From Candidatus Rokuibacteriota bacterium (GTDB lineage Bacteria > Methylomirabilota > Methylomirabilia > Rokubacteriales > CSP1-6): a DNA stretch of 47,118 bases. Below the pieces are notes generated by a model that saw only the letters and a program-made list of their open reading frames with translations, was not told where the DNA came from and searched no databases. Below are positions 11,042 to 37,824 of this stretch, in pieces. The stretch is from positions 1 to 47,118 of the forward strand of contig QHSI01000009.1 in the NCBI GenBank assembly GCA_003221515.1. Direction: 5' to 3'. A program made the translations under genes and the position numbers. The stretch's first letter is position 1; every line of letters starts with the position of its first letter.

Positions 11042-11181
11042 GGCCAGCCTCCTGGTGACGTCGCCCGTAGTCTGCTGGAGGGTCGATCGGTGTGCAACCG
11101 CGTACCACGGCCGGCCCGCCGCCGTCTGGATTTGCCAGGATTTTGCCGCTCGCTTATTGTCTGTCGAGCGCGCGTACCGCA

Positions 11182-11211
11182 GGCCGTCGCGGGGCTGGGG
11201 CCCCGCCGGCC
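11182..11211 (+). ncRNA. Bulged 5'-leader hairpin, copy 1
   Basis: GGCCG (11182-11186), a TC bulge (11187-11188), GCGGGGC (11189-11195), loop TGGG, GCCCCGC (11200-11206) and CGGCC (11207-11211) form a 12-bp stem with a 2-nt bulge. GAGGCGCGGC-like sequence follows directly. The same element stands upstream of the dioxygenase gene on the other strand (37705-37733). There one stem pair is C-G instead of G-C and the loop is one nt shorter, so the pairing is kept while the bases change. It lies in the 5' leader of the UbiE-like methyltransferase, about 35 nt before its ATG. Confidence 0.55.
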
Positions 11212-11245
11212 GAGGCGCGGCTATAGAAAGAGGTACGTGACACAG

Positions 11246-12010
11246 ATGAGCGACAAGACTGACCGGACGGCGGCGACCGCGCCGCATCCGGTACTCAAGA
11301 AATACTACGAGAGCGAGAGCGGGCGGCGACCCTTCGTCAGCGCGCTCTTCGACAACGCGGCCCAGCACTACGACTGGGTCTGCGCGATGGGCTCGCTGGG
11401 GTCGGGACGGTTCTATCGGAGCTGGGTGCTGACCCAGTCCGGGCTCCGCGGCGGCATGAAGTTCCTCGACATCGCAACCGGCACCGGTCAGGTGGCCCGC
11501 GCGGCGACGCGATTGCTGCGGGAGCCGCGGGCGGTGGTCGGGCTCGATCCGAGCGCCGGCATGCTCAGGGAGGCGCGCAAGACGCTGGCGATCCCGCTGG
11601 TGCAGGGGATCGTGGAGGATCTCCCGTTCACGACCGACCGTTTCGATTTCCTGTGTATGGGCTACGCGTTGCGCCACGTCACCGATCTCGGCGTGGCCTT
11701 CCGCGAGTGCCGGCGGGTGCTGAAGCCTGGTGGGCGGCTCCTAGTCCTCGAGATCTCGCTGCCGAGCTCGGCCGCCGGCCAGCGCGTCTTCCGGCTCTAC
11801 TTCGAACGCGTGTTGCCGCTGCTCACCCGGATCAGCACCGGGAGCGCCCAGGCCGAGCTGCTCATGAAGTACTACTGGGACACGATCGCCCAGTGCGTGC
11901 CGTCGGAGCAGATCATTGACGTGCTGGGGGCGAGCGGCTTCACCGGCGTCGCGCGGCGCGTACGCGGCGGCATGCTCAACGAGTACGTCGCGCTGAAGCC
12001 CGCGGGCTGA
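11246..12010 (+). CDS. UbiE-like class I SAM-dependent methyltransferase
   Basis: 254 aa from the ATG at 11246 (a GTG at 11237 is the alternative; AAAGAGG at 11227-11233 is a little far from the first and close to the second). FLDIATGTGQVARAA is motif I, VVGLDPSAGMLREAR motif II, and IVEDLPFTTDRFDFLCMGYALRHV matches the UbiE/COQ5 signature. RVLKPGGRLLVLEISLP is the post-motif. Such enzymes C-methylate quinone precursors or other rings. It converges with the halogenase-like operon and might tailor that product; the plus-strand orientation and own leader make this a guess. Confidence 0.88.
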   Translation: MSDKTDRTAATAPHPVLKKYYESESGRRPFVSALFDNAAQHYDWVCAMGSLGSGRFYRSWVLTQSGLRGGMKFLDIATGTGQVARAATRLLREPRAVVGLDPSAGMLREARKTLAIPLVQGIVEDLPFTTDRFDFLCMGYALRHVTDLGVAFRECRRVLKPGGRLLVLEISLPSSAAGQRVFRLYFERVLPLLTRISTGSAQAELLMKYYWDTIAQCVPSEQIIDVLGASGFTGVARRVRGGMLNEYVALKPAG

Positions 12011-12045
12011 CGCGCCGGGGCCATGTCGGGGCCCGCACCGCCACG

Positions 12046-12216
12046 CTGGGAGGCAGAGGAGCGTCACGGCTACGCCGGGACGCTGCGAACGTGCGGGGGG
12101 CATGGGGGGCCCTTTCGAGGCCCCATCGCCACCCTGGGAGGCAGAGGAGCGTCACGGCTACGCCGGGACGCTGCGAACGTGCGGGGGGCATGGGGGGCCC
12201 TTTCGAGGCCCCCCAT
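12046..12216. repeat. 88-bp tandem duplication, two copies
   Basis: The block starting CTGGGAGGCAGAGGAGCGTC at 12046 is repeated from 12134, a period of 88 bp, with about 79 identical bases. The copies differ at the end: copy 1 has two fewer C residues and lacks the full hairpin arm. Each copy contains the GGGGGGCCCTTTCGAGGCCCC hairpin motif's core. It fills the space between the converging UbiE-like and halogenase-like genes. No coding content is apparent. Confidence 0.9.
12190..12216 (-). terminator. 3'-end hairpin after the halogenase-like gene
   Basis: On the minus strand ATGGGGGGCC (12216-12207), loop TCGAAAG and GGCCCCCCAT (12199-12190) give a perfect 10-bp stem with a 7-nt loop, 4 bp after the TGA stop at 12221-12223. 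No T-tract follows. It is the strongest of three related hairpins found after minus-strand stop codons in this window. It probably ends or stabilises the four-gene biosynthetic transcript; this is inferred. Confidence 0.6.
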
Positions 12217-12220
12217 CTAA

Positions 12221-13501
12221 TCAATGAATCGCCATCTCCGCGGACGTGACGCCGCGCATGCCGTAGCGCGCGAGGATCCGGAGCAGAGCGCGGCTGTAGC
12301 GAGACGTGGTGCCGACGCCGGAGGCCTGCAGGGCGATGTGGCGCTCGATGTGGTTCTGCGCGGCGCTCTTGAAGGCGCTCGGGCCTTCGTCGATCCAGTT
12401 GCGCCCCGACCGCATGAGCGCCAGCATGCGCCCGTCGTAGAAGTGGGCGACGAGGTCCAGCCACGCGGCCAGCATGCGCTGTTGCATCGCCGCGTACGGG
12501 CGCAGCGCCGCGTAGAGCTCGTCGGGTGAGGGCGTCGCCCGACGGCGCAAGAACGGGGCAACCGCGTCGGCCACGACCTCCGCCGAGCGGAGCGCCAGGA
12601 ACACGCCGGGCGACAGCATTGGATCCACGAAGCCGAACGCGTCGCCGATTGCCACCCAGCCCGGGCCGGCACCGCGCTCGGAGATCAGCTGGTAGTTCGA
12701 GTAGGTCGCCACCGACGTCACGCGCTTGGCGGCGCCGACCATCGAGGTGAGCCAGGGGTCGATTGCGATCGCCCGCTCGAGGCGCTCCAGCGGTGTCGCG
12801 CCGAGTCCAGCCGCGTCGTCGCGGCCCAGCACGATGCCCACCGAGAGCCGCTCCTTGAGCGGAATGCCCCAGCTCCAACCTGCCTTGAGACGTGAGATGA
12901 GCACCTGGCCCGGGACGTCGTCCCACTTGAAGTCTTCGAAGTGAGCGAAGTGCGCCACGTCGTTGCGCGGTCCGACCCGCGCGGGAATCCTCAGCGCGCC
13001 GGCCGCGAGCCGGCCGCGTCCGGTCGCGTCGACGATGAAATCGGGCTGACGGTCTCCGAGCGTCGGCGCGGCGGCGAGCGTCTCGGCGTCGAGCGCCAGC
13101 TCGGCCGATCCGGTGCCCGCTGGCCCGAGGCGCGCCCGTGCGATCACGTGTTGGACGCCGGCGGCCACCGCTCGCGCCCGCACCGCCTCATCGAACTGCG
13201 GGCGCGCGATGTTGTAGGCATAGGGGGGCACGGCCGGAGCGAACCGCGCGAACGTGAAGCTGAAGCGCTCGGACTCCGACCACACGAACGAGACGCCGGG
13301 CTTCAGCCTTCCGCAGGTCGCCATCGTGTCCTCGATGCCGAGGCGCTTGAAGATCGGGATGACGGCGGGGATCAGCGACTCGCCGACCAGCAGCTCCGGA
13401 CGCCGCCCGTCGTCGAAGAGCGTCACCTGCGCGCCCTCGCGGACGAGCAGGATGGCTAGCGCCGATCCCGCCGGGCCCGCCCCGATGATCGCGACCCTCA
13501 T
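12221..13501 (-). CDS. FAD-dependent halogenase-like oxidoreductase
   Basis: 426 aa flavoprotein. The FAD Rossmann motif is GAGPAG (7-12). VGESLIPAVIPIFKRLGI (39-56), with Lys67 in RLKPGVSFVW, matches the region holding the catalytic lysine of flavin-dependent halogenases. GWSWGIPL contains W209-x-W211-x-I213-P214, the WxWxIP hallmark that excludes monooxygenase chemistry in that family. AIGDAFGFVDPMLSPGV (285-300) is the second flavin-binding motif. It lies 7 bp after the ligase gene in a four-gene operon with a carrier protein, so halogenation of a carrier-bound acyl group is the natural hypothesis. A geranylgeranyl-reductase-like or plain hydroxylase role remains possible. Confidence 0.78.
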   Translation of the reverse strand: MRVAIIGAGPAGSALAILLVREGAQVTLFDDGRRPELLVGESLIPAVIPIFKRLGIEDTMATCGRLKPGVSFVWSESERFSFTFARFAPAVPPYAYNIARPQFDEAVRARAVAAGVQHVIARARLGPAGTGSAELALDAETLAAAPTLGDRQPDFIVDATGRGRLAAGALRIPARVGPRNDVAHFAHFEDFKWDDVPGQVLISRLKAGWSWGIPLKERLSVGIVLGRDDAAGLGATPLERLERAIAIDPWLTSMVGAAKRVTSVATYSNYQLISERGAGPGWVAIGDAFGFVDPMLSPGVFLALRSAEVVADAVAPFLRRRATPSPDELYAALRPYAAMQQRMLAAWLDLVAHFYDGRMLALMRSGRNWIDEGPSAFKSAAQNHIERHIALQASGVGTTSRYSRALLRILARYGMRGVTSAEMAIH

Positions 13502-18797: not shown

Positions 18798-18820
18798 GGC
18801 CCATCTCGAGGCCCCCCATG
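18798..18820 (-). terminator. Degenerate 3'-end hairpin after the acyl-CoA dehydrogenase gene
   Basis: The minus-strand sequence after the TGA at 18824-18826 reads TTACATGGGGGGCCTCGA, the same as at 12207-12220 apart from one base, but the second arm is shortened and only GGCC/GGCC still pairs. Third member of the 3'-end repeat family. Confidence 0.4.
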
Positions 18821-18823
18821 TAA

Positions 18824-19867
18824 TCAAAGCCGAGCTTCGTCGATCTTGAGACCGAGCCAGTACCGGCCGATCAGCTCGTAGTGGGCGAGACGCCCCTGCA
18901 GGTGCTGCGTGATCACGTGGATGTCCTGGAAGTGGCGCTGGAGCAGATGATCCTCGTAGGCGGCGGTGGCGCCCGAGGCGTTGTAGATGCTGTCGATGAT
19001 CTGCGCCGCGAGCCGGATCCCATGCGTCGCGGCCAGCCGAAGATTCGCGCGCTGCTCGAGGGCGAGCGTGCCGCTCGTGCTGGCCGCCCAGATCTCGCGC
19101 ACCGCTTCGAGGAGAAACGCCCTCCCCGAGCGTAGCGCGGCTTCCGCCTGGCCGACGGTCATCTGGACCATCGCCTGGTCGCGGAGCAGCCCTTGCATGG
19201 CCCGCGGGGTCTTGGCGCCGGCGAGCTCGCCGAACGTCTCCAGGCACGTCCGCGCCATCCCGAACGCGACGGCGGCGTCGCCCGAGGCGAACAGCAGCGT
19301 GCGCGGAATTCTAAATAACGGCGCGTTCTCGAGCAGCGGCGCGGTCTGCGAGAGCACGGTGCGCTCGGTCGGCACGAAGACGTCGTTCACCGCGAAGTGG
19401 TGGGTGCCGGTGCCGCGCATGCCCCGCGTGTGCCAGGTGTCGAGCAGCTCCGCCTCGGCGACCGGCACGAAGAAATAGCGCGCCTCCGGCTGCTCGCCCT
19501 CGAGCCGCACCTGGCCGTTCTCGATGATCTGCGCGTGGGCCGCGACCCACGACGCGTGGCGGCAGCCGGTGCTGAAGCCCTGGCGGCCGGTGACGCGGTA
19601 GCCGCCCGGAACCACGATGGCCTTGGCGCTGGGAGCAGGTGTATTCGCGACGACCGCGCGCGGCACGTCGATCCAGATCTTCCGCGCGACCGCGCGCGGC
19701 ATCCGCGCGGCGTAGGTTCCGAAGATCGCGCCCTGGTTGAGGCACCAGCCCGTGCTCGCATCGGCCTTGCCGATCTCCTCGATCACCTGGACGTACGTCG
19801 GCAGGTCGATCTCGCCGCCGCCGATCGCGCGTGGGATCGCCATGTGGAACAGGCCAGCGTCCGCCAT
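18824..19867 (-). CDS. Acyl-CoA dehydrogenase-family flavoprotein, start probably lost
   Basis: From the first ATG the protein is 347 aa: GEIDLPTYVQVIEEIGKADASTGWC, GYRVTGRQGFSTGCRHASW (flavin-binding beta domain), WHTRGMRGTGTHHFAVNDVFVP and a C-terminal helical bundle. This is the HpaH/group D-like branch of the family. However, 44 codons before this ATG are still in frame and still homologous (ALLDAARKLVPQIRSAADEI), reaching a TAG at 20000-20002 without any ATG, GTG or TTG. Family members are near 385 aa. Either translation starts at a CTG or the gene lost its head when it was joined to the TauD remnant. Function is doubtful. Confidence 0.72.
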   Translation of the reverse strand: MADAGLFHMAIPRAIGGGEIDLPTYVQVIEEIGKADASTGWCLNQGAIFGTYAARMPRAVARKIWIDVPRAVVANTPAPSAKAIVVPGGYRVTGRQGFSTGCRHASWVAAHAQIIENGQVRLEGEQPEARYFFVPVAEAELLDTWHTRGMRGTGTHHFAVNDVFVPTERTVLSQTAPLLENAPLFRIPRTLLFASGDAAVAFGMARTCLETFGELAGAKTPRAMQGLLRDQAMVQMTVGQAEAALRSGRAFLLEAVREIWAASTSGTLALEQRANLRLAATHGIRLAAQIIDSIYNASGATAAYEDHLLQRHFQDIHVITQHLQGRLAHYELIGRYWLGLKIDEARL

Positions 19868-35781: not shown

Positions 35782-36327
35782 CTAGATGAAGAACGTAAGG
35801 TTCTTCGCGAGCAGGACGTTCTGGTCGAGGACGATCATGCGCCGGGCGATCTTCCAGCTCCCGTTCACCCGCCGCAGCACGTCCTCACGCTTGCCGACGA
35901 GCACGTCGGTTTCCGTCTCGACGCGATTGCGGTAGACGAGGAACCGGCACCGGACGGCGACCTCGGACGGCGCCGGTCCCGGCGGCGAGGCGCGGAGGAC
36001 CTGGACGTTCGAGACCACGTGACAGATGCGCGAGGGCGGCTCCTCCGCCCAGTGGATGCCGGTGCGGATCTGGGCGACACGGCGCGCGAGCGTGTCCTTG
36101 CCCTCGTCGAACCAGTTCACGTCCGCGCCCTCGCGCGTGTTCTCCCGCTCGAGCTCGCCGTGGGGGACGTTGCGGCGCATCGGCATCCAGTAGCGCGCGT
36201 CGTCGGCGAGGAGGTCGAGCCACTCCTCGTAGCGTCGCGTGTCCAGCAGCTCGGCCTCGCCGTACAGGAACTCCTCGACCTCCTGCTTGAGCAGGAGTCG
36301 GGCCAGCGCGGCGCGCTCGTCGCTCAC
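35782..36327 (-). CDS. Ring-hydroxylating dioxygenase small (beta) subunit
   Basis: 181 aa from a GTG at 36327 that overlaps the alpha-subunit stop (GTGA). The SnoaL/NTF2-like cone fold of beta subunits is seen in VEEFLYGEAELLDTRRYEEW then LDLLADDARYWMPMRRN, plus RVETETDVLVGKREDVLRR and the C-terminal RRMIVLDQNVLLAKNLTFFI. The subunit has a structural role in the alpha3-beta3 enzyme. Confidence 0.93.
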   Translation of the reverse strand: MSDERAALARLLLKQEVEEFLYGEAELLDTRRYEEWLDLLADDARYWMPMRRNVPHGELERENTREGADVNWFDEGKDTLARRVAQIRTGIHWAEEPPSRICHVVSNVQVLRASPPGPAPSEVAVRCRFLVYRNRVETETDVLVGKREDVLRRVNGSWKIARRMIVLDQNVLLAKNLTFFI

Positions 36328-37676
36328 GGCGCGTTCAGCTCCGCCCAGCTCTCGGCGCCCATGAACTGGCGCCAGCGCCCGTAGAAGCCGCGCTGATTGC
36401 TCTCGCTCGCGTTGGCCTCCGTCACGTCGCAGATCGTGCCCGGGAGCGTGAGCCCGTGGTCCTCGAACGAGCGCGTGGCGCGCCCGAGCCCCATCTCGTA
36501 GTTGTAGGGATACTGCCGGGCGATGGTCCCGCGGCTCGCCTTGTGGGCGTAGTTCCAGTTCTCCATGTCGTCCTGCTCGGTGAGCCCGGCCGGACCGGAA
36601 TAGCGGATGTAGTAGTGGCGCAGGACGTCCTTCACCTCGACGGGCGCGTCGGCGTCGACCAGGTACCAGCGCCAGACCTCGGTCTGGTGCGGCCCGCGCG
36701 GGTGCCACACCGCGAGCGTGCGCGGCTGGCGCGCGAGCGGCGAGGCGTTGGGGAACATCGTGCCGGGGCCACCGAAGAGCCGCCAGTACTCGCCGCGACG
36801 GCGCTTGCGCTCCTCCTCGCAGTGGCGGAAGTACTCCGCGACGATCGGCGTGTCCTGGTAGGCGGGAGCCAGCGGCGAGTCGTGCTTGCGGAGAAACGCG
36901 ATCATCGAGTGGCCGAGCTCGGGGAACGAGACGTCGAGCCAGCGCGCCTCGTTCCGCTCCTGCATGTCGCGCCGCCCCTTACCGCTCGGGCCGATGCCGA
37001 CCATGTCCACCGAGCGGTGGCTCACGCCGTGATAGCGATCGCCCGAGAAATTCTCGGCGGGGAACTTCCAGTTACAGGGGATGAGCCACTTGTGGTTGCC
37101 GCCGATGACCTCGGTGCCGCCCTCGCGCCCGTCCCACGAGTCGAGGAGCAGGTCGAGGTAGAGCTTGTAGCCCCCGATGTATTCGAGGAACGTCGGCGCC
37201 GAGCGGTCCCAGGTGGCCCAGATCGTCCCCTTGTAGTTCTCCATCCGCGCGACCTCGATGAGCCCCCACTGGCTCCGGTCGAGCTGCGCGCCGTAGGCAT
37301 CCTTGCCGAACGGCACGCCGACCAACGCGCCGTCGGTCCCGTAGGTCCAGCCGTGGTACGGGCACATGAACTCGACGGTGTTGCCCTCGTCGTACCGGCA
37401 CACCTTCATGCCGCGGTGCCGGCACGAATTCAGGAAGACGCGCACGCGCCCGGCGCGGTCGCGGCACAGGATGACCGACTCCTCGCCCATGCTGGATGTG
37501 ACGAAGTCGCCCGGGCGCGGGATCTGGCTCGCATGGCCGATGAAGAGCCAGGCGCGCGCGAAGATCCGCTCGAGCTCCTGCCGGTAGATCTCCTCGTTGA
37601 CGAAGATCTCGCGGCTGACGATCCCGCGCTCGACATCGACCAGCGCCTTGAGCCCCCCGGGTTCCGTGATGGCCAT
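36324..37676 (-). CDS. Ring-hydroxylating dioxygenase large (alpha) subunit
   Basis: 450 aa, ATG at 37676 with GGAGG upstream. Rieske centre: Cys85, His87 (CRHRG), Cys105, His108 (CPYHGW). The catalytic iron segment is AENFSGDRYHGVSHRS, with Asp213 bridging and His216 and His220; the two His are three residues apart, where most relatives have four. It should place two oxygens on an aromatic ring, with electrons from a reductase and ferredoxin that are not encoded here. The leader carries the bulged hairpin 37705-37733. Divergent from a CoA transferase, and upstream of the liv operon. Confidence 0.93.
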   Translation of the reverse strand: MAITEPGGLKALVDVERGIVSREIFVNEEIYRQELERIFARAWLFIGHASQIPRPGDFVTSSMGEESVILCRDRAGRVRVFLNSCRHRGMKVCRYDEGNTVEFMCPYHGWTYGTDGALVGVPFGKDAYGAQLDRSQWGLIEVARMENYKGTIWATWDRSAPTFLEYIGGYKLYLDLLLDSWDGREGGTEVIGGNHKWLIPCNWKFPAENFSGDRYHGVSHRSVDMVGIGPSGKGRRDMQERNEARWLDVSFPELGHSMIAFLRKHDSPLAPAYQDTPIVAEYFRHCEEERKRRRGEYWRLFGGPGTMFPNASPLARQPRTLAVWHPRGPHQTEVWRWYLVDADAPVEVKDVLRHYYIRYSGPAGLTEQDDMENWNYAHKASRGTIARQYPYNYEMGLGRATRSFEDHGLTLPGTICDVTEANASESNQRGFYGRWRQFMGAESWAELNAP

Positions 37677-37704
37677 GCTCGTCCTCCTTCGATCGCCGCG
37701 CCTC

Positions 37705-37733
37705 GGCCGGCGGGCCCCAGGCCCGCGACGGCC
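37705..37733 (-). ncRNA. Bulged 5'-leader hairpin, copy 2
   Basis: On the minus strand: GGCCG, TC bulge, GCGGGCC, loop TGG, GGCCCGC, CGGCC, followed by GAGGCGCGGC. It repeats the leader at 11182-11211 with a G-C pair turned to C-G in the upper stem and one loop base less. It ends 28 nt before the dioxygenase ATG, with the ribosome binding site in between. Similarity extends some 15 nt upstream of the stem as well. Confidence 0.55.
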
Positions 37734-37824
37734 GGCAGCGCGCATCTCGCCCGGCCATGGTAGGGCAAGATACGCCGATTCGCGAGCATCGCGCGTGACA
37801 CGGAGCGTCCGCCCCGCACGATGA

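Follow-up and report, generated by a model that had tools for sequence, protein, structure and literature searches.

A dispersed palindromic repeat of Rokubacteria, probably a miniature mobile element, often lying in sense orientation next to ribosome-binding sites

Introduction

ERIC/RU, NEMIS/Correia, and BOX/RUP are short non-autonomous intergenic elements, which fold when transcribed. REPs are described as palindromes of 20–40 bp that occur mostly 3′ of genes and among which head-to-head dimers predominate (PMC3733652). MIRUs, by their description, are mobile and oriented elements inserted at the translation starts of host genes (PMC12548453); their units are given as tens of nucleotides in length and as variable in tandem number (PMC3635867).

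This study concerns a 47,118-nt stretch of DNA (the window; contig QHSI01000009.1, assembly GCA_003221515.1, Candidatus Rokuibacteriota bacterium). A preliminary description of the window had noted a bulged hairpin in the leaders of two unrelated genes and offered three readings of it, namely a cis-regulatory RNA, a protein-binding leader, and a mobile REP-like element. Of these, the evidence supported the last, and not a regulator or leader specific to these two genes. No account of this repeat in Rokubacteria was found in the literature searched, subscription papers lying outside that search, and the Rokubacteria genome paper makes no mention of repeats or palindromes.

Results

Structure of the element

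Both hairpins are present in the window as described (Table 1). They read GGCCG-TC-GCGGGGC-TGGG-GCCCCGC-CGGCC in copy 1 and GGCCG-TC-GCGGGCC-TGG-GGCCCGC-CGGCC in copy 2, each being followed on its 3′ side by GAGGCGCGGC and then by a Shine-Dalgarno (SD)-like sequence. The pair is also listed first among the inverted repeats of the window (42 nt, 86%). The reported hairpins are real, but they are only the tips of a bigger palindrome, in which a lower stem, CGCGCC/GGCGCG, and a weak outer stem, TAGT/GCTA, enclose the reported part (model R1). The unit is a palindrome of ~59–63 nt that is dispersed through the genome. Its consensus, TAGTGCGCGCCGCAGGCCGTCGCGGGGCTGGGGCCCCGCCGGCCGAGGCGCGGCTATAA, folds with an outer stem of 4 bp and a lower stem of 6 bp, followed beyond a GCA/GA internal loop by a stem of 5 bp; a TC bulge separates the latter from a 7-bp stem, which is closed by a 4-nt loop. 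Relative to dinucleotide shuffles, the single copies fold only slightly better (z −1.1 and −1.3), and the consensus has a z of −3.3.

The compensatory G-C to C-G swap between the two copies is weak covariation if taken alone, because it can also be expressed as one substitution combined with the deletion of a single base. Paired changes do, however, occur across the 134 distinct copies: both-sided changes were seen in 14 of 22 pairs, with 96 cells versus 32.2 in shuffles, in an alignment that was fitted to the model and therefore leans towards pairing.

Table 1. Coordinates of the two copies in the window and of the neighbouring features.
Feature	Position	Strand	Basis
Copy 1, full unit (outer, lower, and upper stems)	11168..11226	+	R1 match, 71.1 bits; tip = 11182-11211
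Copy 1, upper bulged hairpin as reported	11182..11211	+	Sequence; fold
Copy 2, full unit	37690..37747	-	R1 match, 59.5 bits; tip = 37705-37733
Copy 2, upper bulged hairpin as reported	37705..37733	-	Sequence; fold
UbiE/COQ5-type methyltransferase gene, downstream of copy 1	11246..12010	+	Pfam; start codon by alignment to G013 ortholog
Rieske ring-hydroxylating dioxygenase alpha-subunit-like gene, downstream of copy 2	36324..37676	-	Pfam match
GAGG, probable Shine-Dalgarno directly 3′ of copy 1	11230..11233	+	Sequence; GAGG also in empty site of G013
AAGGAGG, Shine-Dalgarno directly 3′ of copy 2	37683..37689	-	Sequence
Sigma-70-like promoter TTGCCA-N17-TATTGT just 5′ of copy 1	11132..11160	+	0/200 shuffles reach its score

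Genes and leaders at the two copies

The identities given earlier for the two genes hold, with matches to Ubie_methyltran (E 4e-32) at copy 1 and to Rieske (E 1.9e-17) together with Ring_hydroxyl_A at copy 2. The stated distance of about 30 nt between hairpin and start codon was also confirmed (34 nt for copy 1, ATG 11246; 28 nt for copy 2, ATG 37676). The promoter-like sequence ends 7 nt before copy 1, so that the mRNA would begin with the hairpin itself; initiation 7 nt past this promoter would fall at the 5′ edge of the element. Similar TTGCC..TAYTGT sequences were recognized by eye in the orthologous leaders. Over 18 copies with long upstream gaps, promoter scores were only mildly raised (5/18 at p ≤ 0.06).

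Just downstream of the methyltransferase gene, the window contains an 88-nt perfect-register tandem duplication (12033–12208; 97% identical). A further hairpin motif, dispersed as well, reads GGGGCC-(C)TTTCGA-GGCCCC with A/T-rich sequence after it and occurs at four places in the window, including 268–309, 12095–12224, and 18798–18827. These hairpins are perhaps terminators or another repeat family.

Copy number, arrays, and distribution

The repeat model, built from 20 copies, has at least 133 matches in the genome of origin at E ≤ 1 among the best 150 candidates scored. In 95 sources from this genome covering ~1.03 Mb, all of them stretches picked around copies, 139 matches were found, of which 137 are non-redundant. 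These 137 copies group into 123 clusters: 111 single, 10 double, and 2 triple. All 12 multi-copy clusters are same-orientation, head-to-tail arrays with a period of 63–65 nt. Unit lengths range from 54 to 63 in the 44 copies examined for reading frames.

A model search of related genomes, as proposed in the preliminary description, revealed copies in 9/9 genomes of the genus (from 22 to at least 97 matches each). Within the family, the repeat is present in 41/57 genomes at E ≤ 0.01. At E ≤ 1e-4, 39 of 95 genomes of the phylum were positive; these include 38/57 of the family and 1/3 of the other genomes of the order, with 0/35 in the rest of the class, so that positives are confined to the order. 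An exact 24-mer scan of the genome collection returned Rokubacteria records only, among the matches listed.

Composites of ~122 nt were also observed, in which a second hairpin, of the related GTGCGAGCC...GGCGAGC subfamily, occupies the apical loop of the repeat. They occur at L146:4971–5092 and L186:1705–1826 and, in relatives, at L072, L064, L032, L045, L096, L087, L106, L053, and L042. The second hairpin sits at the same place and in the same orientation across composites at many unlinked loci, which indicates that the composites spread as units.

Placement and orientation

Gene calls were made with a purpose-made Markov gene finder, the start positions of which may be off. By these calls, 111 of the 123 clusters lie between genes with both neighbours present, and the other 12 overlap with called genes; cluster L191:4998–5056, an antisense double-hit of another copy, was kept in the intergenic and start-distance counts. 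A same-strand start is faced by 82 of the 111 intergenic clusters. The enrichment before start codons that had been suggested as a check is pronounced: 49/111 clusters lie 8–22 nt before a sense start codon, whereas 5000 simulations with random position and orientation gave 13.7 on average and never more than 26. Antisense starts at this distance are no more frequent than by chance (9/111 clusters vs 13.6 in the null). The sense bias recurs in the named relatives (39/86; null 13.7, maximum 26) and in the relative G013 (34/72; null 10.5, maximum 21), although these two sets overlap (~31/80 named loci) and are not independent replications.

A test independent of gene calls asked whether an SD-like motif with ATG or GTG after it is present no more than 35 nt from the 3′ end of the element, or from its 5′ end for the antisense direction. 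Sense counts were 59/122 in the genome of origin, 51/97 in the named relatives, and 44/82 in G013, versus antisense counts of 14/122, 7/97, and 11/82, respectively; random windows gave ~5%. Roughly half of the clusters are located away from any ribosome-binding site. It had been argued that random orientation, or a position at 3′ ends, would mark a dispersed repeat rather than a leader regulator. The repeat is dispersed indeed, but its placement is not random, being sense-biased just 5′ of ribosome-binding sites. The initial impression of a leader feature was thus correct with respect to position and orientation, both in the genome of origin and in its relatives.

In same-strand gene pairs, the element often begins 0–8 nt from the upstream stop codon, which means that in operons it fills the gap between this stop and the SD. 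At L137:4374, L183:5001, L220:3067, and other loci, the upstream gene appears to end on the TAG or TAA at the 5′ edge of the element.

Oriented insertion at translation starts, seen here in the genome of origin, in relatives, and without gene calls, is a trait of MIRUs. An element of MIRU type, in which a mini-ORF inside the unit links translation of the two flanking genes, would also account for the sense orientation in intercistronic gaps, for the proximity of the upstream stop to the 5′ end, and for a GTG-like start at columns 3–5 in 33/44 copies. However, a stop before or overlapping the downstream start is present in 19, 12, and 18 of the 44 copies in the three frames, none of which stands out, and the range of unit lengths breaks any frame. 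Mini-ORF coupling was therefore rejected, and we regard a MIRU-like element of this kind as very improbable.

Orthologous leaders in the genus

The methyltransferase leader lacks the element in all eight orthologs from the genus (0/8 in sense). In the closest of these (~90% identical protein), the conserved −10-like TTATTGTC leads to GAGG with no element in between. The Rieske leader likewise carries the element in sense in 0/8 orthologs. In relative G015, the Rieske leader contains a weak, antisense-looking relative of the element (L253:3643–3705; 26.9 bits), hinting that the same leader was entered repeatedly.

The position right before the SD and the structure maintained by paired changes are what one would expect of a conserved RNA that regulates the two genes in cis, as a riboswitch-like or a protein-binding leader. 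Its absence from the orthologous leaders refutes a conserved leader element of these genes. Furthermore, the genes downstream of 49 copies have no common function, the commonest Pfam family accounting for 3/49, and Rfam families gave 0 matches in the window at gathering score. We consider such a regulator extremely unlikely; its recent co-option at these two genes is conceivable.

Empty sites and mobility

The comparison with G013 was made through a 1.59-Mb sample, and a cluster was taken as comparable when both of its flanks were found there. This applied to 51/123 clusters, of which 31 are empty in G013 and 20 are shared. Reciprocally, 37/82 clusters of G013 were comparable, 18 being empty in the stretches from the genome of origin and 19 shared. 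Since 31 of 51 comparable sites are empty in a close relative, the element is mobile, though some of the empty sites may be losses in G013. The cleanest ones display a 60–63-nt insertion directly before the ribosome-binding site. No clear target-site duplication was seen by eye at the 31 empty sites. Arrays have grown as well: at shared sites, L149 and L152 hold one unit in the genome of origin and two in G013, and L198 holds two and one, respectively. At L190, a plain unit in the genome of origin corresponds to a 122-nt composite in G013.

Survey for a mobilizing enzyme

Several traits of the repeat would suit a REP family of the classical kind, moved by a RAYT (TnpA_REP) transposase. It occurs in high copy number as dispersed intergenic palindromes. 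The 5′ tag may be of the REP kind: the first base and the third column are both G in 106/137 copies, with GTAG as the commonest tag (20/137), and this tag can pair weakly with the 3′ end. The bulged imperfect palindrome with CT near its 3′ end resembles what is described for REP recognition in E. coli (PMC8266576), and the tag can supply an upstream stop codon, as is reported for GTAG REPs (PMC3733652). Yet the Y1 transposase family PF01797 was detected in 0/9 genomes of the genus, which are drafts, any one of which could miss one gene; controls of this search were positive in 5/14. In the family, PF01797 is present in 11/57 genomes, mostly element-poor ones. The arrangement differs too: units of ~60 nt lie 5′ of genes and form head-to-tail arrays, and the REP-type location 3′ of genes with head-to-head dimers was not observed. 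A RAYT/Y1 enzyme was accordingly rejected as the mobilizer in this genus, and a RAYT-driven REP family is improbable. The reverse transcriptase family searched for was found in 2/9 genomes of the genus but not in the genome of origin, and was rejected as the mobilizer as well.

Origin of the sense bias before the SD

Two explanations were considered for the placement bias. The insertion machinery may recognize active translation-initiation regions, or transcripts or open DNA there, so that copies land in sense just before the SD; the enzyme would then belong to some family other than RAYT and the reverse transcriptases searched for. This proposal is tentative. Alternatively, insertion may be unbiased and the pattern a product of selection only, because a sense hairpin aids expression or does the least harm. 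Selection would fit the fact that the bias goes with real ribosome-binding sites. Beside copies located away from starts, no enrichment of SD-like motifs was seen (6/29 vs 4, 3, and 4/29 in control windows), so a plain DNA motif does not explain the bias. A hairpin at the transcript end before the SD could protect the mRNA.

Three observations speak against selection as the sole cause. Firstly, the bias is no weaker in unshared copies than in shared ones: a sense ribosome-site position is occupied by 16/31 unshared and 4/20 shared copies (Fisher p 0.039, in a small comparison), and reciprocally by 8/18 unshared and 6/19 shared copies of G013, which is little difference. Secondly, predicted accessibility of the SD-start region is alike for natural (0.447), flipped (0.442), excised (0.462), and shuffled (0.468) elements (n = 43), for which reason it was rejected as the cause of the orientation bias. 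Thirdly, the excess of G-U over A-C wobble pairs is similar in all contexts, being no stronger at ribosome sites, and is absent in G013. The first count gave 97 G-U vs 32 A-C, with 27/97 from one column; with the outermost helix omitted and that column set apart, the ratios were 60:25 in the genome of origin, 30:19 in the named relatives, and 23:23 in G013. This asymmetry was set aside as proof of a folded RNA strand.

The bias is already present in young (unshared) copies, which weakly favours an insertion preference over slow selection. We therefore rank insertion preference first and selection second, if only weakly; selection as the sole cause is possible but doubtful.

Discussion

The feature is, with good probability, a miniature, non-autonomous mobile element of Rokubacteria with oriented insertion adjacent to ribosome sites. 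The proposed element would be an imperfect three-tier palindrome of ~59–63 nt, tagged 5′ with GYRG and ending 3′ in a GCTAYAAA-like sequence, spreading as single units, growing into head-to-tail arrays, and optionally accepting a second hairpin in its loop. New copies would prefer, in sense orientation, the gap between a promoter or upstream stop codon and the SD of a gene. The transcript would thereby acquire a stable hairpin immediately in front of the ribosome-binding site, at its 5′ end or close to it. The mobilizing enzyme probably acts in trans on the single-stranded hairpin, as for REP/IS200-IS605 elements, and would not be of the known RAYT/Y1 family. At these sites the hairpin is presumably transcribed, and the cell would tolerate it or draw a mild benefit from it as a 5′ leader structure, for instance through mRNA protection; as judged from sequence, a protecting or insulating role is plausible.

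If so, the abundant and uncultured Rokubacteria of soils harbour a self-spreading repeat by which dozens of unrelated genes are provided with a ready-made 5′ leader hairpin. As the repeat differs between close relatives, it would represent a natural experiment on mobile elements rewiring bacterial translation. It would also pose the question of how a REP-like element moves with such precision to ribosome sites when the genus lacks a REP transposase.

Among known systems, the repeat resembles the GTAG/CGTC-tagged REPs as described by Di Nocera et al. (2013; PMC3733652) in its many copies, imperfect palindrome, possibly GTAG-like 5′ tag, intergenic location, and stop-supplying tag. The CGTC class is reported there to be likewise without a dedicated transposase. 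Unlike the REPs of that description, the element is about twice as long, has three stem tiers, lies in sense 5′ of ribosome sites, and forms head-to-tail arrays. The genus also lacks a Y1 transposase, and the host order is absent from the phyla given for GTAG/CGTC repeats in the description consulted. With MIRUs, compared by description only (PMC12548453), it shares mobility, orientation, location at translation starts, and variable tandem number; it differs from them as described in lying before the SD and not at the start codon, in its strong palindrome, and in the lack of support for a coupled ORF. ERIC/RU, NEMIS/Correia, and BOX/RUP, also compared by description only, are similar in being short, non-autonomous, intergenic, and folding, but their lengths differ, RU elements being described as 103–168 bp. 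The defining features of REPs fail and the coupling ORF of MIRUs is unsupported; the repeat therefore belongs to neither family, being set apart from MIRUs by description, and is placed, as a new variant, among the miniature palindromic mobile repeats of bacteria.
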